Positions 7,605 through 55,770 of a DNA stretch of 58,276 nucleotides are shown piece after piece. A program made the position numbers and the translations under genes. Numbering within the stretch: the first letter of the stretch is position 1; the number at the start of each line of letters is the position of its first letter. The notes beneath the pieces are model-generated. The model searched no databases, had not been told where the DNA came from, and worked only from the letters and a program-made list of their open reading frames with translations. The DNA comes from Pseudomonadota bacterium (GTDB lineage Bacteria > Pseudomonadota > Gammaproteobacteria > Acidiferrobacterales > Acidiferrobacteraceae), in assembly GCA_021784755.1 (NCBI GenBank), contig JAJYHM010000027.1, positions 1 to 58,276 on the forward strand, read 5' to 3'.

Positions 7605-9209
<1,605 letters not shown>

Positions 9210-40461: not shown

Positions 40462-40833
40462 GTGACGTTTTTTTGGATAGCCTGTTTTGCCGTACTAGGG
40501 GCTTGGCTGCGCTACGGCCAAAACCTCGCCGTACAACGCCTTTTTGGACGGGCCTTCCCCTGGGCTACGCTCTCGATCAACGTCGCGGGCTCGTTTCTCA
40601 TAGGCCTCCTCTCCTATCTGTTCGTCCACGTGACACATATGAGTGCGGCCATGCGTACAGGCATCATCGTGGGCGGTATCGGCACCTATACGACCTTCTC
40701 GACCTTCTCGCTCGAGACACTGCTGCTGCTCGAAGACGGGCAGACGATCCGGGCCGTAAGCTATCTTGCGGCCTCGCTCACCCTGGGGCTTGCTGCCGTC
40801 TTTCTCGGGGCGTTCGTGGCGCCCCATCTTTGA
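40462..40833 (+). CDS. crcB: fluoride channel CrcB/Fluc, first copy
   Basis: 123 residues, four membrane helices. Family motifs: GAWLRYGQN, SINVAGSFLIGL and GGIGTYTTFSTFSLE. Fluc proteins are dual-topology dimeric fluoride channels. GTG start with GAGGAGGG upstream. It is the first gene after the fluoride riboswitch. With the second copy it may form a heterodimer. Confidence 0.95.
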   Translation: MTFFWIACFAVLGAWLRYGQNLAVQRLFGRAFPWATLSINVAGSFLIGLLSYLFVHVTHMSAAMRTGIIVGGIGTYTTFSTFSLETLLLLEDGQTIRAVSYLAASLTLGLAAVFLGAFVAPHL

Positions 40834-41230: not shown

Positions 41231-41614
41231 TTGAAAACCCTGGGGTTCATCGCCCTATTCGCAATCCTCGGAGCCATCTCGCGCTACCTGCAGGCCGTGA
41301 TCGTCGCACGCATCGCAGGCGGTCCATTCCCTTGGGACATCCTTTCGATCAACGTCCTAGGCTCGTTCGCGATGGGCTTTTTGTTCTTTGAGACCTTGGA
41401 GCGCATCACCATAAGCCCCGAGTTGCGCACGGGCCTCCTCACGGGCTTTCTAGGCGCCTATACCACCTTCTCGACCTACGTCTTCGGCGCACTGCATCTT
41501 TTCAAGCACGGGGCATGGTTTGTCGGGGGCGCCTATCTCTTCGGATCCGTGGCACTGGGTCTTATCGCCACGGCCTTCGGCGCTTGGCTCTCACGCAACA
41601 TTGCGCGCGGCTGA
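41231..41614 (+). CDS. crcB: fluoride channel CrcB/Fluc, second copy
   Basis: 127 residues with AILGAISRYLQ, SINVLGSFAMGF and GFLGAYTTFSTYVFG. Same family as the first copy but clearly diverged, as expected for heterodimeric Fluc pairs. TTG start (MKTLGFIALF) with a weak RBS; 70 bp gap to DUF190. Stops 6 bp before the convergent rimI ends. Confidence 0.92.
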   Translation: MKTLGFIALFAILGAISRYLQAVIVARIAGGPFPWDILSINVLGSFAMGFLFFETLERITISPELRTGLLTGFLGAYTTFSTYVFGALHLFKHGAWFVGGAYLFGSVALGLIATAFGAWLSRNIARG

Positions 41615-42878: not shown

Positions 42879-43574
42879 TCAATCGCCGGCATGACCCTCT
42901 GGCGGGCGATGGGCCCGGCCTTGCCCGGAGGCGCGCGCCCGCAGATAGGCGACAAGAGCGGCGACCTGCCGATCACTCAGGGGATCGGCGTAGGCCCGTT
43001 CCCGCGTACCCCGCACACCAGCCAGGATGTCGACCGCCAGATCAGCCGCCCCCTCGCGGCGCGCCAGCGCAAAGAGGTCAGGGGCCGGATTGCCCGCGCC
43101 TGGCGTGACGTGGCAGGCCGCACAGAGGCGCGTGTACAGAAAGGCGCCCTCCCGTAGGCGCCGGGCGCTGGAATGCCGCGGCACGAGGCCGCGGAGATCG
43201 AAAGGATACGCGACGCGCAGCGCATGCATCTCGCGCCATACGATGTTGATCGCCCCACTCTTCAGGGCACGACGGGCGCGCTCTATGCGGGCCTTTATGG
43301 GGGCCGGGGCGCACCCCGCCCGCTCGCAATAAGATCGTGCCTCGAACCCCAGCACACCAAGATCGCTTTGGATGCGCGCAGCAAGCCGCGGAGACTTGGC
43401 GCCTACATACGCGCGCTGCGCCTCCTGCGCCAAGAGTGCCACTTCCAAGCGAAAACCGGCCCCGAGGGCGATGGGTATCGGCTGTCCAAGCAAGACGCAG
43501 AGCACCAAAAGGATGCGGCGACGCACGCCCTGGGTAGGACCCGCAGGGCCTCGCGACGCGGCGTTCGCCCTCAC
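42879..43574 (-). CDS. periplasmic cytochrome c of the sulfur-relay operon, no obvious Met ligand
   Basis: About 231 residues. A hydrophobic segment (RRRILLVLCVLLGQPIPIALGA) targets it to the periplasm. The first half has two Cys (SYCERAGC) and no known domain. The second half has one heme site, TRLCAACHVTPGAG, and ends PLSDRQVAALVAYLRA. The expected Met in a 'MP' context before PLSD is absent, so the sixth ligand is unclear. GTG 43574 overlaps the previous stop (GTGA), which decides the start. Last gene of the operon. Confidence 0.82.
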   Translation of the reverse strand: MRANAASRGPAGPTQGVRRRILLVLCVLLGQPIPIALGAGFRLEVALLAQEAQRAYVGAKSPRLAARIQSDLGVLGFEARSYCERAGCAPAPIKARIERARRALKSGAINIVWREMHALRVAYPFDLRGLVPRHSSARRLREGAFLYTRLCAACHVTPGAGNPAPDLFALARREGAADLAVDILAGVRGTRERAYADPLSDRQVAALVAYLRARASGQGRAHRPPEGHAGD

Positions 43575-43765
43575 ACCGTCACAACCAAATCGGCCGTGAG
43601 GATGGCATCGAGCAGCCCATCGCATTCCTGCTCGGTCAGGATATGCCCACGCACATCGTGACGTGACAGGCTGTGTGCAGCCAGGTCCTCCTCAAGCCAC
43701 GCCACGGCCCCTTCCACGGTCTGCCGATCCGGAAACAGGCCGGTCTCCAAGATAACGATGCGCAT
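43571..43765 (-). CDS. small hypothetical protein in the sulfur-relay operon
   Basis: 64 residues with a beta-alpha pattern (MRIVILETGLFPDRQTVEGA ... GLLDAILTADLVVTV). No cysteine except one (EQECDGL). No family recognised. It sits between a DsrE-like gene and the cytochrome gene, with GTGA overlap to the latter, so it belongs to the operon. Confidence 0.6.
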   Translation of the reverse strand: MRIVILETGLFPDRQTVEGAVAWLEEDLAAHSLSRHDVRGHILTEQECDGLLDAILTADLVVTV

Positions 43766-43784
43766 AGCGGCCCCTTAAGTTGCC

Positions 43785-44060
43785 TTACAGCGAAATCACG
43801 GCATCCGCTTCGGCGAACGCCGCGCCTAGCCCTGCAACATCGAGACAGGGCAACCCTTGATCGGGCACAGTGGTCTCGATCGCCACCTCAGCGAGCTCAA
43901 GGGTCTCGACCTGTAAGGCATTCTCCGCGGTGTCGGCGACCGGTTCTGTCATCAGGATCAGCCGCACGGTGTGACCGAATATCGTCAATCCCGCGGCGAC
44001 GCGCATGGCCTCCGTGTGATCGCAACGCCCCAGAACGACGAGGTGCTTTTGCGCGCCCAT
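43785..44060 (-). CDS. DsrE-like small protein A
   Basis: 91 residues: HLVVLGRCDHTEAMRVAAGLTIFGHTVRLILMT is the DsrE-type beta-alpha-beta unit; LPCLDVAGLGAAFAEADAVISL ends it. Two cysteines (LGRC, LPC) could carry sulfur. The pairing with the next upstream DsrE-like gene recalls the DsrEFH heteromer, but these are shorter. Two-base gap to it. Confidence 0.7.
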   Translation of the reverse strand: MGAQKHLVVLGRCDHTEAMRVAAGLTIFGHTVRLILMTEPVADTAENALQVETLELAEVAIETTVPDQGLPCLDVAGLGAAFAEADAVISL

Positions 44061-44062
44061 AC

Positions 44063-44353
44063 TCAGAGGCTCACGATGCGTCGCGCCGAGGCGACCATGG
44101 CGCTATTGTCGGTCTGGCTTCCGAGCGCGTTGAGGCAAGACCCGCGCCCGAAGCGCTCCCAGGAATACTCGCAGACCGCCACGCGGGTGCACGCCCGCAA
44201 ATCGATATCGATCTGGGGATTACCGGCGAGCACCGCGGCCGGACCCGTCAGGAAAACTCCGCAGAGAATCTGACGCCGCGCGCAGGCACGCAGCAGGCCG
44301 GACAACACCGGCGCCGATTCGGCCCGTGACACCAAGAACAGGATATCCATCAA
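44063..44353 (-). CDS. DsrE-like small protein B
   Basis: 96 residues: MDILFLVSRAESAPVLSGLL, then ILCGVFLTGPAAVL and RVAVCEYSWERFG. The last contains a Cys at the position where DsrE/DsrF-like proteins carry persulfide. Overlaps the rhodanese-like gene by ATGA. It probably pairs with DsrE-like A. Function inferred from fold and context. Confidence 0.65.
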   Translation of the reverse strand: MMDILFLVSRAESAPVLSGLLRACARRQILCGVFLTGPAAVLAGNPQIDIDLRACTRVAVCEYSWERFGRGSCLNALGSQTDNSAMVASARRIVSL

Positions 44354-45183
44354 CGCCTCCTCGTCCTACGCCACGCCCACATCAGGATAACCACACTAAA
44401 CGCGGCTGCAGCCAGCGTGGGCAGTACCGCAAAATCGCCCCGTCGCCGCACGCGTGCGGCGTGCGCGTGCGCCGACCAGTCGCGCCAGCCGCCCAGGAAC
44501 ACCCGCGCCCGCACCCCGAGCATCCGCAGCCGCGCGAAATAGGCCACCGACTGGTAAGGGCCCTCGCCATAGGCGATAACGCCTCGCCCGGCGGCACGCA
44601 AAGGTCCCACGCCCATCCCTGTCCCCAGCGAGGCCATGGGCCGGGACCGGGCGCCCGGTATGCGCTGACCAGCCCGCAGTCCCCGCTTACGATCAGTCAA
44701 GCGGCCGTCCACCAAGTCTACAGGCGGGCCGTGATGCAAAGACGCGGCAAGCTCGCGGCGCAAGACCACTAGACGCGTACGTGGCCAAGCGGTGTAGATG
44801 GCCTCCCGAAAGACGCCGCGCGTCCGACCGGTCCCTACAGCACGCGGATGACGACTAAGCCAGCCCGTCAAAGGCTCCCGCACGACCTCCACCCGCCTTT
44901 GCCCGGCGAGGTACAAAAGACCCGCCACGAAATCCTCCGCCGTGCCATGATCCCCGGCCACCACGGCCGTCTCGGAACCCGTAAGCCCCATCGTCCCCAA
45001 AAGCCAGCGCAGGTTACGAAAGCTCACGAGTCCGCCCGATCGATCCTGAAAAACGCCGGGCGAGAGACAAAGCCCCCCTACGACCGAACGCCGCACACAG
45101 AGGGCTTGCCGCCGTGTATCCACGACCACCGTATGCCGCGGTACAGGCCACGGCATACGGGCATAAGCCACAAGGGTGGCCAC
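44350..45183 (-). CDS. tandem rhodanese-like protein without catalytic cysteine, C-terminal membrane anchor
   Basis: 277 residues. Domain 1 (1-115): TVVVDTRRQALC, TAVVAGDHGTAEDFVAGLLYLAG, VVREPLTGWL. Domain 2 (130-235): PVDLVDGRLTDRKRG, then QRIPGARS, and VIAYGEGPYQSVAYFARLRMLGVRARVFLGGW. In both, the Cys of the usual YC-x-x-G-x-R/S loop is replaced (AGDHG; AYGEG), so sulfurtransferase activity is unlikely. A membrane helix (VLPTLAAAAFSVVILMWAW) and RRTRRR end it. Start uncertain: GTG 45183; coding-like sequence continues upstream without a standard start codon. Confidence 0.75.
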   Translation of the reverse strand: MATLVAYARMPWPVPRHTVVVDTRRQALCVRRSVVGGLCLSPGVFQDRSGGLVSFRNLRWLLGTMGLTGSETAVVAGDHGTAEDFVAGLLYLAGQRRVEVVREPLTGWLSRHPRAVGTGRTRGVFREAIYTAWPRTRLVVLRRELAASLHHGPPVDLVDGRLTDRKRGLRAGQRIPGARSRPMASLGTGMGVGPLRAAGRGVIAYGEGPYQSVAYFARLRMLGVRARVFLGGWRDWSAHAHAARVRRRGDFAVLPTLAAAAFSVVILMWAWRRTRRR

Positions 45184-45224
45184 GGGCCCGTGCGCCTGCG
45201 CATCCAGGATTGCCGCATGCGCCG

Positions 45225-45587
45225 TCAGCAGCCGCCGACCTTCGGCAATGGCCGCGCCGACCCTGGACGCCCCGCTGGTGGCGGATTCTCAAGGTAGTAA
45301 TTCACAAGCTCGCGCACACTCACCGTCCCATAGAGGCCACCCATGGGTATGGGCGCGAAGCGGCCCATGGTCTGCGGGGTCTGCGCGCGCTTCATGAACT
45401 GCGGCGAGACCGAGGCTATGCGCATCAGAAGCGATATACCGATCACTACGAGAACGATGCACGAACCGCAGTAAAGCAGGATCTGGGATCGCGTCATTGC
45501 CCCGCTGCCGGTTTTCGTCACGCCTAGCGCTCGCGCACACCCCGCGTCCGGCATCACCCCACCGTGCGACGTTTCCTTGGTCGTCAT
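45225..45587 (-). CDS. small membrane protein in the sulfur-relay operon (paralogue 1)
   Basis: 120 residues. A hydrophilic N-terminus, one membrane helix (ILLYCGSCIVLVVIGISLLM), then a periplasmic-looking segment with GGLYGTVSVRELVNYYLENPP. The last motif resembles EALNIARLAAYYKGN of the other small membrane protein at 45702, so the two may be paralogues. AGGAGG five bases before ATG 45587. Function unknown. Confidence 0.65.
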   Translation of the reverse strand: MTTKETSHGGVMPDAGCARALGVTKTGSGAMTRSQILLYCGSCIVLVVIGISLLMRIASVSPQFMKRAQTPQTMGRFAPIPMGGLYGTVSVRELVNYYLENPPPAGRPGSARPLPKVGGC

Positions 45588-45600
45588 AATGCCTCCTCGC

Positions 45601-45693
45601 CTAGAACACGTCGGTTGTGAGAGCGATATAAAGTACACACATCATGACGATGAACATCACGATTTGCGCAATTGTCGGGAGATCGAGATCCAT
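45601..45693 (-). CDS. 30-residue membrane microprotein
   Basis: MDLDLPTIAQIVMFIVMMCV followed by LYIALTTDVF. It is almost one membrane helix with an acidic start. AGGAGG lies six bases before ATG 45693, and the gene fits between its neighbours with 8- and 13-bp gaps, which supports it being real. It may be a subunit like CcmD or CydX for a membrane complex. No homologue recalled. Confidence 0.6.
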   Translation of the reverse strand: MDLDLPTIAQIVMFIVMMCVLYIALTTDVF

Positions 45694-45701
45694 AAGTCCT
45701 C

Positions 45702-45971
45702 CTAGTGCCGGCCACCGGTGGCAACCAGCCTTTTCTCCACGGCATACCGGCCGGCTGCGACATTACCCTTGTAGTACGCGGCTAGGCGCGCGATATTCAG
45801 GGCTTCCCCATCGATCGGATTTATGACAGGCGGCGTGAAATACGCGACCCCGTCGCGGGTACGATGGAGCGAGGCCGGCGGGGCCACCAGCATATAAACA
45901 AGGGTCCCTACGGTCATGAAGCCGGTAAGCGACGCCAAAGCGAGCATAGTCTTTTGACCGATTGGCAACAT
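45702..45971 (-). CDS. small membrane protein in the sulfur-relay operon (paralogue 2)
   Basis: 89 residues: one N-terminal membrane helix (MLALASLTGFMTVGTLVYML) and a hydrophilic domain with TPPVINPIDGEALNIARLAAYYKGNVAAGRY. The IARLAAYYKGN motif matches VRELVNYYLEN of the protein at 45225. It may face the periplasm. Unknown family; 13 bp after tusA-like. Confidence 0.65.
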   Translation of the reverse strand: MLPIGQKTMLALASLTGFMTVGTLVYMLVAPPASLHRTRDGVAYFTPPVINPIDGEALNIARLAAYYKGNVAAGRYAVEKRLVATGGRH

Positions 45972-45984
45972 GGAACGGCCCTCC

Positions 45985-46293
45985 TCAGTTCTTGCGCACG
46001 AACACTCGCCAATGACGATCGGCCTTCACAGTGACAAGATGCGTGCCGCCGACCGCCCCGACCACCGTTGGCAAGGCCTCCATGGAGGTCGGGTTATCGA
46101 CCCTGACCTCGATCACGGCCCCCGAGACCGCCTCGCCCAGGGCCTTCTTGGTCATGAGCTGCGGACGCGGACAGGAATCGCCCAAGACGTCCACGACGCG
46201 ACTGATGTTTAGCACCGTCCCATCCTCCAAGGTCAACTGCCCAGCTGGCGTCGCAGCCTCGGAGGAGGGGGATTTGCGGTTGAATAGACCCAT
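45985..46293 (-). CDS. TusA-like sulfur carrier
   Basis: 102 residues. After about 25 extra N-terminal residues (MGLFNRKSPSSEAATPAG), the TusA/SirA fold appears with the catalytic motif DSCPRPQLMTKKAL (CPxP) and TSMEALPTVVGAVGG. TusA carries persulfide sulfur to other acceptors; near YeeE/YedE genes it probably takes imported sulfur. It lies 4 bp after the YedE-like gene. Confidence 0.85.
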   Translation of the reverse strand: MGLFNRKSPSSEAATPAGQLTLEDGTVLNISRVVDVLGDSCPRPQLMTKKALGEAVSGAVIEVRVDNPTSMEALPTVVGAVGGTHLVTVKADRHWRVFVRKN

Positions 46294-46297
46294 AACT

Positions 46298-47005
46298 TCA
46301 CTCTCCCAAAGTCGATAAGGTATCGCGTGCGCTCGATACCGGGTTGGCCACCGTAGCTGGGCGCCCTACGGAGGGGCTCACAGCGTACTCGATGGAAATC
46401 GGCGTCTCCTGTCCTTGGGGCGCGAGAGCAGCGCGCTCGCGACGCAGAATCCGGCGATATAGGGCATAGAGCGCGCCGGCCTGGATGACACCGAATACGA
46501 CCGCTGGCACCCCCGTATCGCGCTGCAAAGTCAGGGCGTCGGCAAAGCCCAACTGCAAGGCCGCGGCGTTGGCATGTCCGGTCATAGAGGGTCCCGCGAG
46601 CGGCCAAAACGAGAAGGACCAGACAAGTGAGGACACAAACAGTCCCACGATCAGAAAGAGCAGGGCCCACAAGGCGCCGATATTGCCCTCTCCGGTCTTG
46701 ACCCAGGATGACACGGTGCATGCCCCGGCAAACACCATGCCGATACCGAAGAGAAAGAGCCCGATGAATTGATTGATACCGACGTCGAAACGCATGGGAT
46801 TGCCGTTACCGATACTGATCATGGCCGTAAAGCCCACGGTCAGGATCATCATGGCAACCAAAAGGGCCTTAGTGTTGCGATAGCTCTTAAAGAGCATAGC
46901 GTCGCGCAAGGCCGCCGTGTTGCACCACCGCGAGCGTTGCACGAGTACCCCCACCGTGGTCCCGAACACGAAGGCCGCCGCGCATTGTCCGTAGACTGTG
47001 ATCAT
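46298..47005 (-). CDS. YeeE/YedE-family sulfur channel subunit B
   Basis: 235 residues, about five or six membrane helices, with the conserved SRWCNTAALRDAM segment and GIGMVFAGACTVSSWVKTGEGNIGALWALL, whose Cys residues match those used for thiosulfate relay in TsuA. It has a soluble Pro-rich tail of about 45 residues. It starts one base after subunit A. Two half-size proteins here replace the single full-length family member. Confidence 0.85.
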   Translation of the reverse strand: MITVYGQCAAAFVFGTTVGVLVQRSRWCNTAALRDAMLFKSYRNTKALLVAMMILTVGFTAMISIGNGNPMRFDVGINQFIGLFLFGIGMVFAGACTVSSWVKTGEGNIGALWALLFLIVGLFVSSLVWSFSFWPLAGPSMTGHANAAALQLGFADALTLQRDTGVPAVVFGVIQAGALYALYRRILRRERAALAPQGQETPISIEYAVSPSVGRPATVANPVSSARDTLSTLGE

Positions 47006-47006
47006 G

Positions 47007-47516
47007 TCAAGCCTCCAAGATCTTCTTGTACACGAGCGTTCCGACCCAGGCGCCGATCACAAGGCCACTCACCGCAAGATAGCCGCCGAGATTCATTTCC
47101 GGCGTAAGACCGAGAAAGGTGCTCACATTGCAGACGAAAGACAAGCGGATGCCGATCCCCATGAGCAGGCCGCCTATCGTGATCATGACCCACTCCGACA
47201 GATGCTTGGGCACACGCCAGTAGAATTCCTTGCTCAGGATCGCGCTCACGAGGGCGCCAAAGCCCATGCCGAGGCTAATGTAGATCTTCCAATAGGCCCA
47301 CGTTGGCTTGAATACCAAATGCCAAAACGGGATACGGTTCATCTCCTTGGCGCCCACCAAGGACTTCACGAACAGCCCCGCAAGCATGGTCTCCCCGCCG
47401 CCCACGGTCCAAGCGCCGACGATCAGGAACAAAAAAATGTCCAGCACGGCGATGATCGCCAACGCGACGATGGGATCCAGAGATTTCTTGAAAAAATCCA
47501 CGCGCCACCCCCTCAC
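47007..47516 (-). CDS. YeeE/YedE-family sulfur channel subunit A
   Basis: 169 residues, four or five membrane helices; conserved segment IGIRLSFVCNVSTFLGLTPE contains a single Cys in the place of the family's G-C motif. It probably associates with subunit B to make one thiosulfate/sulfide-type pore, as in two-part YeeE/YedE (PmpAB-like) systems. It is the first gene of the eleven-gene operon; 660 bp separate it from the DsrC-like gene upstream. Confidence 0.82.
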   Translation of the reverse strand: MRGWRVDFFKKSLDPIVALAIIAVLDIFLFLIVGAWTVGGGETMLAGLFVKSLVGAKEMNRIPFWHLVFKPTWAYWKIYISLGMGFGALVSAILSKEFYWRVPKHLSEWVMITIGGLLMGIGIRLSFVCNVSTFLGLTPEMNLGGYLAVSGLVIGAWVGTLVYKKILEA

Positions 47517-48175: not shown

Positions 48176-48514
48176 TCAACCCGTACTCCAACCGCGCGGC
48201 CGGCGCATACCGGCCACCTTACAGGCCTGCTTGACGTAACCGTAGGGAAAGAGCTCGAAGAGCCGTGAGCGCGCCTTGGTGCCTAGCCCCTGATCGGCCA
48301 AGTGACGGATCGTAAATCGAGCATCAGGGATGACCTGGTGTTCTTCAAAGAAGCCCCGCATGAAGCGGATGACCTGCCAATGCTCATCGCCCAACACCAG
48401 ACCTTCGGAGTGCGCCAGCGCCTCGGCTACCGGCTCGCTCCAGTCCCCGGGATCGATCAAATAACCCTCCTCATCGATCGAGACGCGCGCACTGCCAGCC
48501 GAGATCTCCGCCAT
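48176..48514 (-). CDS. DsrC/TusE-family protein with altered C-terminal arm
   Basis: 112 residues. The fold is clear: GYLIDPGDWSEPVAEALAHSEGL, DEHWQVIRFMRGFFEEH, and LFELFPYGYVKQACKVAGMRRP. In DsrC the arm has Cys in QAC-x-I-AG and a second Cys just before the end (GCV). Here the first is present, but the penultimate position reads GWSTG, with no Cys. ATG 48514 (MAEISAGS) follows AGGGGG; longer frames are unsupported. Likely a sulfur carrier or regulator for the downstream operon. Confidence 0.85.
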   Translation of the reverse strand: MAEISAGSARVSIDEEGYLIDPGDWSEPVAEALAHSEGLVLGDEHWQVIRFMRGFFEEHQVIPDARFTIRHLADQGLGTKARSRLFELFPYGYVKQACKVAGMRRPRGWSTG

Positions 48515-48766
48515 TCCATACCCCCTACGAAATCGCTCATTACGGCATCGGAACGGGCCCGGCATATGAGCGGGTCCGCCCGACACTGGGCGCGCCGGGA
48601 ACCGGCGCCATGGCCAGACTTTTTCAGATGGGGGCCCGGGCGCGCCTTGACCCAAATCAAGACCGCGCGGCGCCGCGGGCCTTGCCGCGCGCGCCCTCCT
48701 GCGGCACTCTCTCCCAACTGCCCTGATCCATGGGCGCGAGAGTCCTTGCCTGCCGAGATCCGTCCG

Positions 48767-50109: not shown

Positions 50110-53100
50110 TTACGCGGATGTCGGGGATGGGCCCGGCATCCGCAGGAATTCCCGCGCGTGGATATGCTGGATCTTGTCGGGCGAGCGCTGCAGCACGCCC
50201 CGCACACGCACCAGGGCGGATCGCAGAACAAGCGGCCGAAAGGCCTCCGCCACATCCGCAGACACGATGATGTTCGCAGTGCCGGTCTCATCTTCCAGCA
50301 AGAGAAACATCAGGCCCTTGGCGGAACCGGGTCTCTGGCGACTGATCACAAGCCCGGCTATGGTCACGAGCGCGCCGGGTCTTACGCCCCCCAGGGCCGC
50401 AATCGACGTGACCTCGGGTCCAAGATGCGCACGCGCAAGCCCCACTGGATGGCCACGCAGGGAAAAGCCCAGGGCGCGGTAATCCGCCTGCATGTCCCCG
50501 GCATGAGAGCCCGGACGGCGCCATACCTCGGCCTCCTCCGGATCAGCAAAAAGCGGTAGCGGCGCTTGGGCTGCGAGGCTCCCCCACAAGGCCTGCGGGC
50601 GCGACCCTGAGAGGCCGTCCAGGGCCCCGCCTTCAGCGAGATGCCAACCGTCGGTCCGCGCAAGCCGCGCACCGCGTGTCAAGGCCGGCCATGAGGAGCG
50701 CTCTGACTGGGATAATTGCGTAAGCCGCACGGCTGCCTTGCGCTTAAGCCCCCCTATGAGGCCCAGGCCCAGACGTACAGCACGCCGACCACCAGCGTCC
50801 ACCTCCAGAATCGTATCGACTTGGCTCGAACGGACATCGGGCGCCAGGACACGCACCCCGTGGCGCCGTGCATCGGCTATGAGTTGCGACGGCGCATAGA
50901 AACCGAGCGGCTGGCTATTCAAGAGGGCGCATAAATAGACATCCGGGACATGGCATTTGAGCCAGGCGCTGGCATAGGCCAGGAGCGCGAAGCTCGCGGC
51001 ATGGGATTCCGGAAAGCCGTAGGCCCCGAAACCGTGTATCTGCCGATAGATATCGTTCGCGTAGTCCTCTCCATAGCCGCGCCCACGCATCCCCTCCAGA
51101 AAACGTCCCTTGAAGGCCTGCAGATCCCCATCCCTTTTCCAGGCCCCCATGGCACGCCTGAGCGCATCGGCCTCGCCCGGCGAGAAGCCGGCGGCCACCA
51201 CCGCAAGCTTGATCACTTGCTCCTGAAAGAGCGGTATGCCAAGCGTCCGCCCCAAGACCGCCTCGATGTCCCGGCTCGGATAAGACACGGCCTCGCGCCC
51301 TTGGCGTCGCCGCAGATAGGGATGGACCATATTCCCTTGAATGGGTCCCGGGCGCACGATTGCGATCTGCACGACAAGATCGTAGAAGGTGCGCGGCCTA
51401 AGACGCGGCAAGAGCGCCATCTGGGCGCGCGATTCGATCTGAAAGACACCGACCGTATCAGCCGCCGACACCATCTCGTAGACGGCGCGATCCTCGGCTG
51501 GTATCTCCCAGAGCGCGCCAGGCCCAAGCTTATGTTCGCGCATGATCGCAAAGGCCTTGCGCAACGCCGTCAGCATGCCAAGCCCCAGGCAATCGACCTT
51601 CATGATACGTAAGGCATCCAGGTCATCCTTATCCCACTGCAGGACCGTCCGTCCCGACATCGCCGCCTGCTCTATGGGGATGAGCCGCGTCAGGGACTCC
51701 TGCGACAACACCATGCCCCCGGTATGCTGCGAGAGATGACGCGGGCGGCCAGCCAATTCCCGCACCAAGGCGATGAGTTGACGAAAGGGCGGCTTGCGCA
51801 CATCCATCCCCTGCTCGGCCAGTCGCCCCTCCAAGACATCAACCCCCTCCCACCAACCGAGCAGACCCGCCAGCCGATCCACGAGTGCGGCCTCGCAGCC
51901 CAAGGCCTTCGCGACATCGCGCAATGCGCTGCGCGTCCGATAGGTGATGACGCTTGCCGTCATGGCGGCGCGATCACGTCCATAACGCTCATACAAATAT
52001 TGAATGACCTCCTCGCGCCGTTCGTGCTCGAAATCGATATCGATATCGGGCGGTTCGTTGCGTTCGCGCGAAATGAACCGTTCAAACAAGACCTCAAGAC
52101 GTGCGGGATCCACGGCAGTGATGCCCAGGGCATAACAGACTACGGAATTGGCCGCCGAGCCGCGCCCCTGACAGAGAATGCCGCGATCACGCGCGAACCG
52201 CACGAGGTCATGGACGGTCAGAAAGTAATCCGCATAGGCAAGCTCCCCTATGAGGGAGAGCTCATGACGCGCCAGGGACTGCACGGGGTCCGGCACGCCC
52301 CGCGGATAGCGTATGGCCAGCCCCTCGCGCGTCAACCGGATCAATTGCACAAGCGAATGGCGCGGGCTGCGGCCCTGACGCGGATAGCGGTAACGGAGGT
52401 CCTCCAGGGAAAATCGGCAGGCCGCGGTCACGACCTGCGTCTCCTCGAGCCACGCCTCGGGATAGAGCGCGCGCAAGGCCGGGATGTCCCGCAGGTGCCG
52501 CTCGCCGTTCGGGTACAGGGCCCATCCCGCGTCCGCCACCGAGGTCTTAAGCCGGATGGCGGTCATGGTGTCTTGCAGGGCGCGGCGCCCGCGCTTGTGC
52601 ATATGCACATCACCGCAGGCCACGACCGGCCTTGCCAGACGCGCGGACAGGGCATGGAGGCGCTCCCGGTGGCGATCGTCGAGCCCCGTCTTATGCAATT
52701 CCCCGGCGATCCAAAACCGCGACCCCAAGGACTGCGCGATCGATGCCGCAAGCGGATCCCGATCCGGGTTCTGGTCCGGACACCAGAGCACAAGGCAAGA
52801 TGAGAGCCCGGCGATATCGGCAAGACCGAGATCGTAACAGCCCTTGTCGACCCGCCGGCCGCGCGTTATGAGCTCGGAAAGCTCCGCATAGCCCGGCGCG
52901 CACCCCACGAGGACCACACACTTCAGACCCTCCCGGACCGTGATCTCGGAGCCCACGATCAAGTGGAGTCCATGCTCCCGGGCGGCCCTGTGGGCATGCA
53001 CGATGCCGGACAGGGAGCATTCATCCGTCAGGGCCAGGGCGCGATAGGACAAGGCGCAAGCGCGCAGGACGAGCTCCTGGGGGGAAGAGACTCCGCGCAG

Positions 53101-53145
53101 GAAGCTGAAATGACTCAGGCAATGCAGCTCGCTGTAGACGGTCAT
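50110..53145 (-). CDS. dnaE2: error-prone DNA polymerase DnaE2/ImuC
   Basis: About 1011 residues. Starts MTVYSELHCLSHFSFLRGVS (PHP domain), continues with the C-family polymerase core (GRGSAANSVVCYALGIT; PPDIDIDFEHERREEVIQYL with the catalytic Asp pair) and ends with an OB-fold. It lacks the extended tau-binding end of DnaE1. It performs SOS-induced translesion synthesis with ImuA and ImuB. ATG 53145 overlaps the imuB stop (ATGA). Confidence 0.96.
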   Translation of the reverse strand: MTVYSELHCLSHFSFLRGVSSPQELVLRACALSYRALALTDECSLSGIVHAHRAAREHGLHLIVGSEITVREGLKCVVLVGCAPGYAELSELITRGRRVDKGCYDLGLADIAGLSSCLVLWCPDQNPDRDPLAASIAQSLGSRFWIAGELHKTGLDDRHRERLHALSARLARPVVACGDVHMHKRGRRALQDTMTAIRLKTSVADAGWALYPNGERHLRDIPALRALYPEAWLEETQVVTAACRFSLEDLRYRYPRQGRSPRHSLVQLIRLTREGLAIRYPRGVPDPVQSLARHELSLIGELAYADYFLTVHDLVRFARDRGILCQGRGSAANSVVCYALGITAVDPARLEVLFERFISRERNEPPDIDIDFEHERREEVIQYLYERYGRDRAAMTASVITYRTRSALRDVAKALGCEAALVDRLAGLLGWWEGVDVLEGRLAEQGMDVRKPPFRQLIALVRELAGRPRHLSQHTGGMVLSQESLTRLIPIEQAAMSGRTVLQWDKDDLDALRIMKVDCLGLGMLTALRKAFAIMREHKLGPGALWEIPAEDRAVYEMVSAADTVGVFQIESRAQMALLPRLRPRTFYDLVVQIAIVRPGPIQGNMVHPYLRRRQGREAVSYPSRDIEAVLGRTLGIPLFQEQVIKLAVVAAGFSPGEADALRRAMGAWKRDGDLQAFKGRFLEGMRGRGYGEDYANDIYRQIHGFGAYGFPESHAASFALLAYASAWLKCHVPDVYLCALLNSQPLGFYAPSQLIADARRHGVRVLAPDVRSSQVDTILEVDAGGRRAVRLGLGLIGGLKRKAAVRLTQLSQSERSSWPALTRGARLARTDGWHLAEGGALDGLSGSRPQALWGSLAAQAPLPLFADPEEAEVWRRPGSHAGDMQADYRALGFSLRGHPVGLARAHLGPEVTSIAALGGVRPGALVTIAGLVISRQRPGSAKGLMFLLLEDETGTANIIVSADVAEAFRPLVLRSALVRVRGVLQRSPDKIQHIHAREFLRMPGPSPTSA

Positions 53146-54554
53146 GCAAAGTAGCCCTGCAGAAACCATTCATCTTGCGCGCTGCGGAACACCCAGAAAT
53201 ACTCGCAGGCGGGATTCACCGCCACGAAATAGTCGCGCACCACGGGTTCATCCCACCACCCGGTCTCCACCCGCTCGGGCCCGCGCGCAAGACGCAAAGG
53301 GCCGCGCAATGTCGGCATTCCGCAGATGACCTCGAGCCGCTCCGGGGGATCCATGAGCCATATCGGGCGCTCGGCCGCAACCGCCCCCGCGGACCCCTGC
53401 GGGCCCTGTGGCGGCCAGGGATCCTCGCGGCTTGCGCGTTCGGGCCTATGATCCGGGCGCACCGACAGCGCGCGCACCGCCTCACGACCGAGTCGCGCGC
53501 GCAGTCTGTCCACGAGCCCCCCGAAGCCCTGCTCATACCATTGCCCGTCGTGCCACAAGGGGAGGCTGCCTTCCGTCGAGGCCTCCAAGGGAGCCGATAA
53601 GGTGACTGCCGTTATGGGGGATGCGGGCCGCAAATCCCGCAGTCGTTCCCGTATGAGGCGCACCAAGACCTGGCCGTCCCGCTCCGGGCGTGTCAGCGTA
53701 AACGTCTCCGACCGGACACTGCCATCCTCATGGCTCATCTCGACTACGAACCCATCGGCGCGGGCGTCGCGGGCGCGCATGACCGCGACCCACTCGCGCA
53801 CGATCCGCGCCAAGGCGAACGCCAGGGCCTCCTCCGTCTCCGCGGAATGCGAAAAACAGAGCCTGCGTCGAAAGCGGGGTGCCGGCGCCCAGAAGCTCTC
53901 AACCTCTGGACGCTCACCCATGAGCTCCTCCAGTAAAGAAACGACCTCCCGACCAAAACGCCGGACCAGGCCCGAGCGCGGCATATCCAGGAGATCCCCC
54001 ACCCGCGTAAGCCCGAGCGCACGACAGGCCTCGCGTGCCGCGTCCGCCAGCGGCAACTGCGCTAAGGGTAAAGGACGCAGCAACGCACGCCAGGGGTCTT
54101 TGGGCGTCCATACGCAACGCATCGCAGCGCGCGCGCAAAGCCAGGCGGCGACGGCGGTCGGCGCCATGGCGATCTCGAACGCGTACCCCATATCAGCAAG
54201 CCCTCGCGCCACAGAGGCCACAAGCCTATGCGGGTCGCCTATGGGGCTTGCCTTGTCCGTGAATCGCATCAAGACGCCATCGGCCCGCAAGACCACCTGC
54301 GGTGTGAAGCCGTAGGCGAAGGCCGCCAGACCTTCCAGAAGGGCCTCCTCGGCAGCCCGATCGCGCGGCGCGAACACCAAGGACGGACACGAGGCGGCGG
54401 CCCGCACCACAGACAGGCCGGGCGTCAGGCCACGCTCCCGGGCGCACGCATTGCAGGCAACCAAGGTCTTGCCCTCGACCACCGCGAATGGGGTCTCGTG
54501 CGACGCAAAGACCTCCAGAGGCAACGCCGTCAGGACCACAGCCTGCCATAACAT
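53142..54554 (-). CDS. imuB: catalytically dead Y-family protein ImuB
   Basis: 470 residues with the Y-family palm and little finger folds (ACNACARERGLTPGLSVVRAAA; CRALGLTRVGDLLDMPRSGL). The catalytic acidic residues are missing: the first strand reads VVLTALPLEVF and the later one LRADGVLMRF. ImuB is the scaffold that links ImuA, DnaE2 and the beta clamp. 14 bp after imuA. Confidence 0.93.
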   Translation of the reverse strand: MLWQAVVLTALPLEVFASHETPFAVVEGKTLVACNACARERGLTPGLSVVRAAASCPSLVFAPRDRAAEEALLEGLAAFAYGFTPQVVLRADGVLMRFTDKASPIGDPHRLVASVARGLADMGYAFEIAMAPTAVAAWLCARAAMRCVWTPKDPWRALLRPLPLAQLPLADAAREACRALGLTRVGDLLDMPRSGLVRRFGREVVSLLEELMGERPEVESFWAPAPRFRRRLCFSHSAETEEALAFALARIVREWVAVMRARDARADGFVVEMSHEDGSVRSETFTLTRPERDGQVLVRLIRERLRDLRPASPITAVTLSAPLEASTEGSLPLWHDGQWYEQGFGGLVDRLRARLGREAVRALSVRPDHRPERASREDPWPPQGPQGSAGAVAAERPIWLMDPPERLEVICGMPTLRGPLRLARGPERVETGWWDEPVVRDYFVAVNPACEYFWVFRSAQDEWFLQGYFA

Positions 54555-54568
54555 GGGGAAATCCCGGA

Positions 54569-55162
54569 TTAGAGTGTGACGATCAGCGGCGCCACCGGAC
54601 GGCCGGCCTTACGCGCAAGAGTGACCCGCACACCCTTGGGCGCGGGCTCCAAGACGAGACGCAGGCGCGAAGGCTTGGGCGCAAGATTCCGGGGCAAAAA
54701 ACAAAAACTCCAATGTCCCCCTTCGGCGGCCTGGCGCTGCAAGGCGCGGAACTCCTGCTCCCGGATATCGGCAAACCAACTCACCACGGCCCCGACGGCG
54801 GGGCTCGCAAGCCCTTGGCTGACCGCCCACAAGGCCTCCTTGTGGGTCCTTGGGCGCACGATGACGAGATGATTCAGCGCGATGTCGTGCGCGGCAAGCG
54901 CCGGGGCGCAGGGCCTGTAGGGGGGCGCCACCCACATCAATCGGCCCTCGCGACCCAGGGTCGCCAAGACCGGCAACAGCAGGCGCATCTCGCCGATACC
55001 CGCCCGCCCCACACGTAACTCCGTCAGGACCCCGACCGGCCACCCTCCCCCTTCCAGGCATCGGTCGAGCTCCGCAAAGCCCGTGGACATGACGGTGGAC
55101 ACCGTCGACGCCGTCCCGCGGCGTACCCCGGCCCGCCCCCAGGCGTCCGCCAAGACGCTCAT
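54569..55162 (-). CDS. imuA: mutasome RecA-like protein ImuA
   Basis: About 197 residues. [24 protein letters not shown] and [21 protein letters not shown] follow the ImuA/SulA-like RecA fold; Walker A is degenerate (GRAGIGEM). It regulates the mutasome. ATG 55162 overlaps the lexA stop (ATGA), fixing the start; a longer frame to 55219 lies inside lexA. Confidence 0.92.
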
Positions 55163-55770
55163 GACGCGCCCTCCAGACCTTGGCGCAACACCCCCACCCC
55201 GATCCCCTCTATGACCCAATCCTCGCGATCCTGCAGGACGATCGGCTGATAGTCCGGATTCTCCGGCCGCAAAATGACCCGCCCCGCGCGACGCTGCAAG
55301 CGCTTGACCGTCACCTCGTCGTCCAAGCGCGCCACGACGATCTGCCCATCATGGGCGACGGGGGTCTTGTGGACCGCCAGGAGATCCCCATCCCGAATCC
55401 CGGCATCCCGCATGCTCTCGCCGACCACCGTCAGGAAATAATCCGCGCGTGGCCGGAACAGGGCCGGGTCTATCTGATGGCGGGCGGTGATGTGGGCCTG
55501 CGCGAGCAGGGGCTGGCCGGCCGCCACCCGCCCTATCACGGGAATACCCTCCTCACGCCGATCCGGGAGCCGGATGCCGCGCGCGCTCCCCGGGGTCAAA
55601 ACGATCACACCCTTGCGGGCCAAGGCCCGCACATGCTCCTCGGCGGCATTGACGGATCGGAAACCCAAGGCCGCGGCGATCTCCGCGCGCGTGGGCGGCC
55701 GGCCCGTGGCCTCGATCTGCCCCCGGATCCAATCCAGAACCTGCTGCTGGCGCCCTGTAAGAATCGACAT
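55159..55770 (-). CDS. lexA: LexA repressor
   Basis: 203 residues. N-terminal winged helix ([20 protein letters not shown]...[18 protein letters not shown]), cleavage site Ala-Gly in RVAAGQPLL, catalytic Ser in [10 protein letters not shown] and Lys in VTVKRLQ. It represses its own operon lexA-imuA-imuB-dnaE2 and is self-cleaved with RecA. First gene of the mutasome operon; such an arrangement is known for a second LexA in several proteobacteria. Confidence 0.96.

Follow-up and report, generated by a model that had tools for sequence, protein, structure and literature searches.

Several described sulfur-handling systems resemble parts of an operon of eleven genes (A–K) that we analyze here; it lies at 42879–47516 on the minus strand of a 58,276-nucleotide stretch of DNA (the window; contig JAJYHM010000027.1 of assembly GCA_021784755.1) from a member of the Acidiferrobacteraceae whose genome assembly measures 2.36 Mb in 73 contigs and is 85.65% complete. 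The closest are the YTD or dsrEFH type II gene clusters (statements about cited papers refer, here and below, to the parts of their text that were available). In these clusters, the dsrE gene and two hypothetical genes have been modeled as a DsrEFH-like trio (PMC13293266, PMC13047784), and assays of the recombinant type II trio reported sulfur transfer between the recombinant proteins (PMC13293266). Among 111 proteomes, the complete YTD cluster was reported only from Desulfobacterota and Nitrospirota (PMC12998232); type II subtype 1 has been noted in Pseudomonadota, with no further genes described there in the available text (PMC13293266). In the SoxT1A module of Hyphomicrobium denitrificans, a YeeE-like importer stands with a cytoplasmic chain of rhodanese, DsrE, and TusA that has been proposed for it; a small protein of 56 residues, with a single helix and no cysteine, is encoded nearby (PMC11582611). 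The cysteine of the C-terminal GGCGG motif of SoxY is an established sulfur carrier (PMC6067878), and how the second sulfur of thiosulfate enters the cytoplasm is described as unknown (PMC11582611).

With the YTD and dsrEFH type II clusters, the operon shares a syntenic set of YedE, TusA, a DsrE-type protein with a conserved cysteine, and two further small proteins. It differs from the published cluster of about five genes in that YedE is split and that D, E, F, G, and K, often together with a rhodanese gene, L, are interleaved in fixed order, as judged against published descriptions of YTD. TsuA–TsuB (YeeE–YeeD) likewise pairs a channel that has conserved cysteines with a TusA-type partner, but its channel is a single chain, whereas the channel here is divided and sits inside an operon resembling those of energy metabolism. 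For the SoxT1A module, an F-like tail, a cytochrome c, and a DsrEFH trio are not described in the available text of PMC11582611. A preliminary description, made from the DNA letters alone, had called the combination unfamiliar. That stands for the full eleven-gene set, of which we found no description in the literature searched (subscription journals lie largely outside it), and no description of D, E, F, G, K, or L in this role appeared in the searchable literature; it does not stand for the core, published as YTD and dsrEFH type II. As far as we could find, the core is known, and the extension and the cysteine tail of F are undescribed.

The eleven-gene operon is real and broadly conserved. 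All 11 open reading frames (ORFs) that the preliminary description had grouped into one minus-strand operon are present and tightly spaced, and inspection of starts puts the probable upper end at 47501, with the likely starts of A, F, and K revised (Table 1). In the window, AGGAGG precedes each of D, E, and F. Two genome samples, 57 from the order and 369 from the class, were searched for carriers of the cassette by gene D. It is present in 18 of the 57 order genomes, window genome included, and all eleven genes stand in the same order in 16 of the 17 relatives fetched, the 17th locus (L037) being cut by a contig end within G. The class sample holds D in 11 of 369 genomes from 8 genera, two of them the window genome and a congener; among the 9 other class loci fetched, 6 are complete (L049, L050, L051, L053, L054, and L055), two are cut by contig ends (L052 and L056), and the ninth, L057, has no detectable E, J, or K.

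A wider scan with a profile of A, which required exact matches to two short peptide patterns, covered 84,980 species genomes and returned 122 relatives, 80 of which were examined. The order, class, and species-genome locus sets overlap and share some genomes, and the locus hidden Markov models were retrained on their own hits, so that their E-values flatter. Gene order was counted in the 58 of 80 loci that extend 6 kb or more beyond the start of A, the 22 shorter loci being left out. The eleven genes occur in order in 55 of these long loci; the exceptions are L128, in which E and J were not detected, and L130 and L137, in which G and K were not. Each of D, E, F, G, and K is found in 56–58 of the 58 (D in 58 and E in 57; J also in 57) and is about as constant as the core, a result on which we rejected an ordinary YTD cluster as a full account of the locus. 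Within the order, the 30-residue ORF E keeps 63–93% identity. The recurrence of one order in both counts, the conservation of E, and the AGGAGG upstream of it together place the ORF set beyond chance. The preliminary description had called for a search for the eleven families in this order and had reckoned scattering in close relatives as evidence against an operon; the order is kept in those relatives.

All 80 relatives carry proteobacterial record titles, labeled as gamma-, beta-, and alphaproteobacteria and including Sedimenticola, Thiorhodococcus, Sulfuritalea, Thiobacillus, a Thioglobus metagenome-assembled genome, Maritimibacter, Marimonas, Sinisalibacter, and Magnetovibrio; several cassette bearers are known sulfur oxidizers. 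A profile of H identified carriers in at least 2 of 398 genomes of a phylum sample, window genome included, a possible undercount with at most 12 candidates scored per genome; the second carrier (G673) was seen over a 3.3-kb stretch that holds C to J plus L around H. As for spread on plasmids, 72,556 plasmid records yielded no match to YedE half B at E ≤ 1e-10.

A feature of the operon that the preliminary description missed is the C-terminus of F. This protein is divergent (19–87% identity to the window copy and a mean column identity of 37% across 36 sequences), yet its last two residues are Gly-Cys in 73 of 73 loci (GGC 57, QGC 11, EGC 3, SGC 1, and HGC 1), or 74 of 74 with the window. In the stretch before this end, which has a median length of 13 residues, Ala makes up 28%, Pro 13%, and Gly 12%. 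SoxXA–SoxYZ offers a parallel, in that a cysteine close to a C-terminus with glycine is accompanied by a c-type cytochrome, but F ends in xGC and never in GGCGG, is a single-helix membrane protein, and has no NCBIfam match at E ≤ 1, SoxY included. Membership of SoxYZ–XA was ruled out by the model scores of F and K and by this ending; the parallel with the swinging arm of SoxY is, as an analogy, one of design and not of descent. Protein D ends in cysteine in 0 of 75 sequences, a count that does not include L057. It has no Pfam match at E ≤ 1 and one NCBIfam match at 0.07, and its kinship with F shows no more than a weak profile match (hhalign probability 15%). More generally, D, E, F, H, I, and J gave no convincing family match, in Pfam for all six and in NCBIfam for all but J. 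Among the D proteins seen, that of the divergent locus L057 stands apart in ending in Gly-Cys, as F does there too. In a congener (L026:7384-7982), extra F pieces flank an intact F copy, either a partial duplication or an assembly fault.

We propose, with confidence that stands at about the midpoint, that the operon encodes a membrane machine passing sulfane sulfur from the periplasmic side across the inner membrane to cytoplasmic sulfur-oxidation enzymes, with F as its carrier. In the periplasm, L (encoded elsewhere in the window genome) and G would supply or shape sulfane sulfur, and the C-terminal cysteine of F would hold it, F serving as a tethered swinging arm. The cytochrome c, K, would accept electrons as sulfur binds, and D and E would keep F beside the channel. 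The YedE pair A/B would convey sulfur by way of its conserved cysteines to TusA (C), from which it would pass to H–I–J, a putative DsrEFH type II-like trio, and finally perhaps to DsrC and reverse Dsr or to sHdr. Homology or predicted fold establishes the families of A/B, C, H, K, and L, and the relay from YedE to a DsrE-type carrier follows from the families of the genes; for D, E, F, and G, we infer roles from conservation and place. A sulfur pathway through TusA and DsrE carriers had already been suggested in the preliminary description and is upheld by homology and by the YTD and dsrEFH type II parallel, whereas for the electron coupling suggested with it the conserved cytochrome is the one piece of evidence.

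There is a plausible case that F is a new kind of carrier. A bolder claim, which we advance tentatively and expect to fail somewhat sooner than to hold, is that F is the first member of a new class of sulfur carriers tethered to the membrane, whose flexible tail on a single helix would offer a persulfide on its terminal Gly-Cys to the split YedE channel; together, F, the cytochrome, and the rhodaneses would make up a complete machine for oxidative sulfur import, replacing or following SoxYZ. If true, an F-based machine would supply the missing step for periplasmic sulfur into the cytoplasm. That step becomes testable through an operon of fixed order and a cysteine at a known residue that is the candidate carrier; D, E, F, G, K, and L, six little-known families, gain a common context, and the YTD core is placed inside a larger system in Pseudomonadota.

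The half-size YeeE/YedE pair and the TusA of the preliminary description were both recovered in Pfam: PF04143 matches A (E = 3e-20, over positions 167–310 of the model) and B (E = 2.6e-22), and PF01206 matches C (E = 1.1e-15). A also matches the first half of the YedE/FdhT model, and its profile matches the TsuA structures 6leo and 8j4c at about 1e-10. One cysteine is invariant in A (81/81) and two in B (79/79 each), and the CPRP-motif cysteine of C (C41) is kept in 77/77. The resemblance of A/B to TsuA invites an account in which whole thiosulfate is imported, as by YeeE–YeeD, and split inside by TusA, with D, E, F, G, and K as accessory or assembly proteins without a carrier role; YeeD (TsuB) is itself reported to cleave thiosulfate (PMC11073785, PMC11582611, PMC13047784). 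We consider this unlikely. A and B score far below the NCBIfam TsuA cut-off (54.6 and 57.6 against 400 bits, scores lowered by their being halves); the account leaves the invariant cysteine of F, the rhodaneses, and the cytochrome unexplained; and thiosulfate failed to load cable-bacterial TusA, DsrEFH type II, and DsrC (PMC13293266).

Of the two proteins earlier called DsrE-like, H is supported by its predicted fold and I is probably DsrF-type on a weak profile match, and neither has a Pfam DsrE match: H, I, and J show none to PF02635 at E ≤ 1 and by sequence do not class as DsrEFH type I. The model of H, built on an alignment of 45 sequences, is confident (pLDDT 97.1, pTM 0.89), and its first five Protein Data Bank matches in Foldseek were two chains of 3pnx, 2pd2, 8uja, and 2qs7, with probabilities of 0.99–1.00, query TM-scores of 0.66–0.73, and no E-value better than 0.011. 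The titles of three of the five (the 3pnx chains and 2qs7) name DsrE or DsrE/DsrF-like proteins; of the others, 2pd2 is a conserved hypothetical protein and 8uja a designed cage. Cys61 of H is invariant (71/71), and the H profile found no DsrE chain by sequence. Together, the predicted fold and its matches support H as DsrE-type. The profile of I reaches Allochromatium vinosum DsrF (2hy5_B) at E = 0.12, behind an unrelated match at 0.014; hhalign detected no kinship between H and I and matched J to I weakly, and J is possibly DsrH-type.

The operon could also serve sulfur disproportionation, a role proposed for the YTD clusters of Desulfobacterota, whose core resembles that of the operon; YTD proteins were more abundant in Desulfolithobacter during thiosulfate disproportionation (PMC9751629). 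Type II occurs, however, in only 25 of 63 known disproportionators, and the same source argues for oxidation (PMC13293266), which leaves a disproportionation role improbable.

The periplasmic end of the proposed machine depends on the rhodaneses and the cytochrome. The membrane-anchored tandem form ascribed to G in the preliminary description fits the window copy and is not general: G is short (188–229 residues) in 21 of 69 sequences and carries a charged C-terminal anchor in 40 of 69 (signal, anchor, and charge counts follow our own crude rules throughout). Its match to the rhodanese model PF00581 is weak (E = 5.5e-4; 20.8 bits, where the cut-off is 22.2). Cysteines 43 and 53, both in the first domain, are invariant (69/69), and no other cysteine reaches 70%; what we take to be the usual rhodanese active-site cysteine is not kept. 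In the window copy, no ATG, GTG, or TTG start lies in frame above 45183 and no signal peptide is visible.

Rhodanese L is a frequent twelfth member that the preliminary description did not include. It lies on the same strand in 56 of 80 loci, in 51 of these between H and K; its catalytic-type cysteine is kept in 56/56, PF00581 extends over two domains in the three copies tested, and 44 of 56 look signal-bearing. The window genome encodes it outside the window (G000:C45:80833). Across the genus, 10 of the 11 D-bearing genomes have an L match at E < 1e-70, G010 being the exception, and 0 of the 3 others do; adding G014 and G016 gives 12/13 versus 0/3 (Fisher p = 0.007, kinship ignored). L stands beside the cassette only in G006 and apart from it in 9 of the 10 L-positive cassette genomes of the genus. 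K is a cytochrome c by PF13442/PF00034, with CxxCH kept in 63/63. Its model shows four N-terminal helices followed by the cytochrome c part (pLDDT 87.6); the best fold match is cytochrome c552 7o9u (E = 0.026), and no listed match explains the N-terminal bundle.

The destination of the sulfur was approached through dsrA, scored at E ≤ 1e-60 and counted without regard to oxidative or reductive type. In the class sample, dsrA occurs in 116 of 369 genomes, in 9 of 11 with the cassette versus 107 of 358 others (Fisher p about 7e-4, kinship ignored); the two cassette genomes without it are the window genome, which is less complete and whose relatives G005 and G009 have dsrA, and G317. A tight tie to Dsr held in this sample and failed within the order. 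A second possible outlet appears on contig C56 of the window genome (L172), where LipS1-, LipS2-, lipoate-ligase-, and HdrB-like genes, all below equivalog cut-offs, occur along with DsrE genes; from its gene content, this has the look of an sHdr-type sulfur oxidation locus. Acidiferrobacter strains are cited as having both dsr and hdr genes (PMC6397845).

Several observations weigh against the membrane-machine proposal. The class genome G317 lacks dsrA, although it is 100% complete and carries the full set of eleven genes. In the order, dsrA exceeds the cut-off in 13 of 18 cassette genomes versus 9 of 10 tested cassette-free genomes, and the five without it (G000, G003, G008, G012, and G014) include fairly complete assemblies (G003 92%, G008 91%, and G014 99%, which retains a fragment of 37 positions). 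A signal-like start of G is found in 40 of 68 copies and missing from 28, among them all ten Acidiferrobacter-type loci; K scores far below the SoxX cut-off (17.8 versus 61 bits); J is a possible DsrH-type protein by position only; and in L057, E, J, and K were not detected. Nor does the charge count settle the topology of F and D, the bias being 0.59 versus 0.19 for F and 0.80 versus 0.76 for D; from its short N-terminus and small charge bias, F may face outward. Should its tail face inward, F would be a receiver between YedE and TusA, and still new. The 14 cassette genomes tested for SoxY include G673; SoxY was found in 11 of them, over the cut-off in 9, and is absent from G000, G007 (99% complete), and G111 (93%). 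Because these three lack it, not every host of the cassette seems to require SoxY for it.

Selenium or tellurium handling in place of sulfur would accord with NCBIfam matches to YedE/FdhT, YedE-type selenium transporters, YedF, and ExtH (for L), all of them below cut-off; set against the dsrA association in the class sample, the DsrE-type fold of H, and the sulfur-bacteria names among the records, it is hardly credible.

Regulatory neighbors differ among loci. A divergent ribbon-helix-helix regulator lies upstream of A in 37 of 80 loci (PF13467/RHH_4-type in the one tested), and some others, such as Sedimenticola L076, have a phosphonate-type binding protein, a histidine kinase, and a sigma-54 response regulator upstream. 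These regulators are possible sulfur sensors, and their presence admits a reading of the whole locus as a sensor whose imported sulfur would serve a regulator, much as SoxT1B serves signaling (PMC11582611). The regulators vary by lineage, whereas the eleven genes do not, and a long operon with DsrE-type carriers exceeds what a sensor needs; we hold a sensing module to be very improbable. That different regulators stand beside the same eleven genes suggests that the eleven form a portable functional unit.

Table 1. Genes of the operon, listed from its upstream end, with window coordinates.
Gene	Product	Position	Strand	Basis or remark
A	YedE half 1	47007..47501	-	Probably starts at GTG 47501; open frame reaches 47516
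B	YedE half 2	46298..47005	-	PF04143
C	TusA with N-terminal extension and CPRP motif	45985..46293	-	PF01206
D	Single-helix protein with a motif also present in F; window copy lacks a terminal Cys	45702..45971	-	
E	30-residue single-helix membrane peptide	45601..45693	-	AGGAGG upstream; 57 of 58 long loci
F	Single-helix protein with flexible tail ending in Gly-Gly-Cys	45225..45587	-	ATG start at 45587 likely
G	Tandem rhodanese-like protein; C-terminal hydrophobic anchor in window copy	44350..45183	-	Start uncertain; frame open to 45288
H	DsrE-type protein with invariant Cys	44063..44350	-	Predicted fold
I	Probable DsrF-type protein	43785..44060	-	Weak profile match and operon position
J	Possible DsrH-type protein, 64 residues	43571..43765	-	Position only
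K	Monoheme cytochrome c; signal-like N-terminus by eye	42879..43526	-	Likely GTG start at 43526

Around the operon, the minus strand also carries a gene of the DsrC/TusE family (48176-48655; PF04358, E = 9e-30), about 660 bp upstream; its product has one cysteine near the C-terminus and lacks the near-terminal cysteine typical of DsrC. Two tandem CrcB-family genes occupy 40462-40833 and 41231-41614 on the plus strand. In Sedimenticola, DsbB-like and DsbA-like genes about 5 kb upstream (L076:1772-2859) recall the thiol-disulfide partners proposed for SoxT. Farther off in the window, a minus-strand region at 50110-55770 looks like a LexA–ImuA–ImuB–DnaE2 mutagenesis cassette, and a plus-strand region at 7737-9209 presumably encodes the large subunit of RuBisCO, with ORFs resembling the small subunit and CbbX after it; all of these were named by reading their translations.

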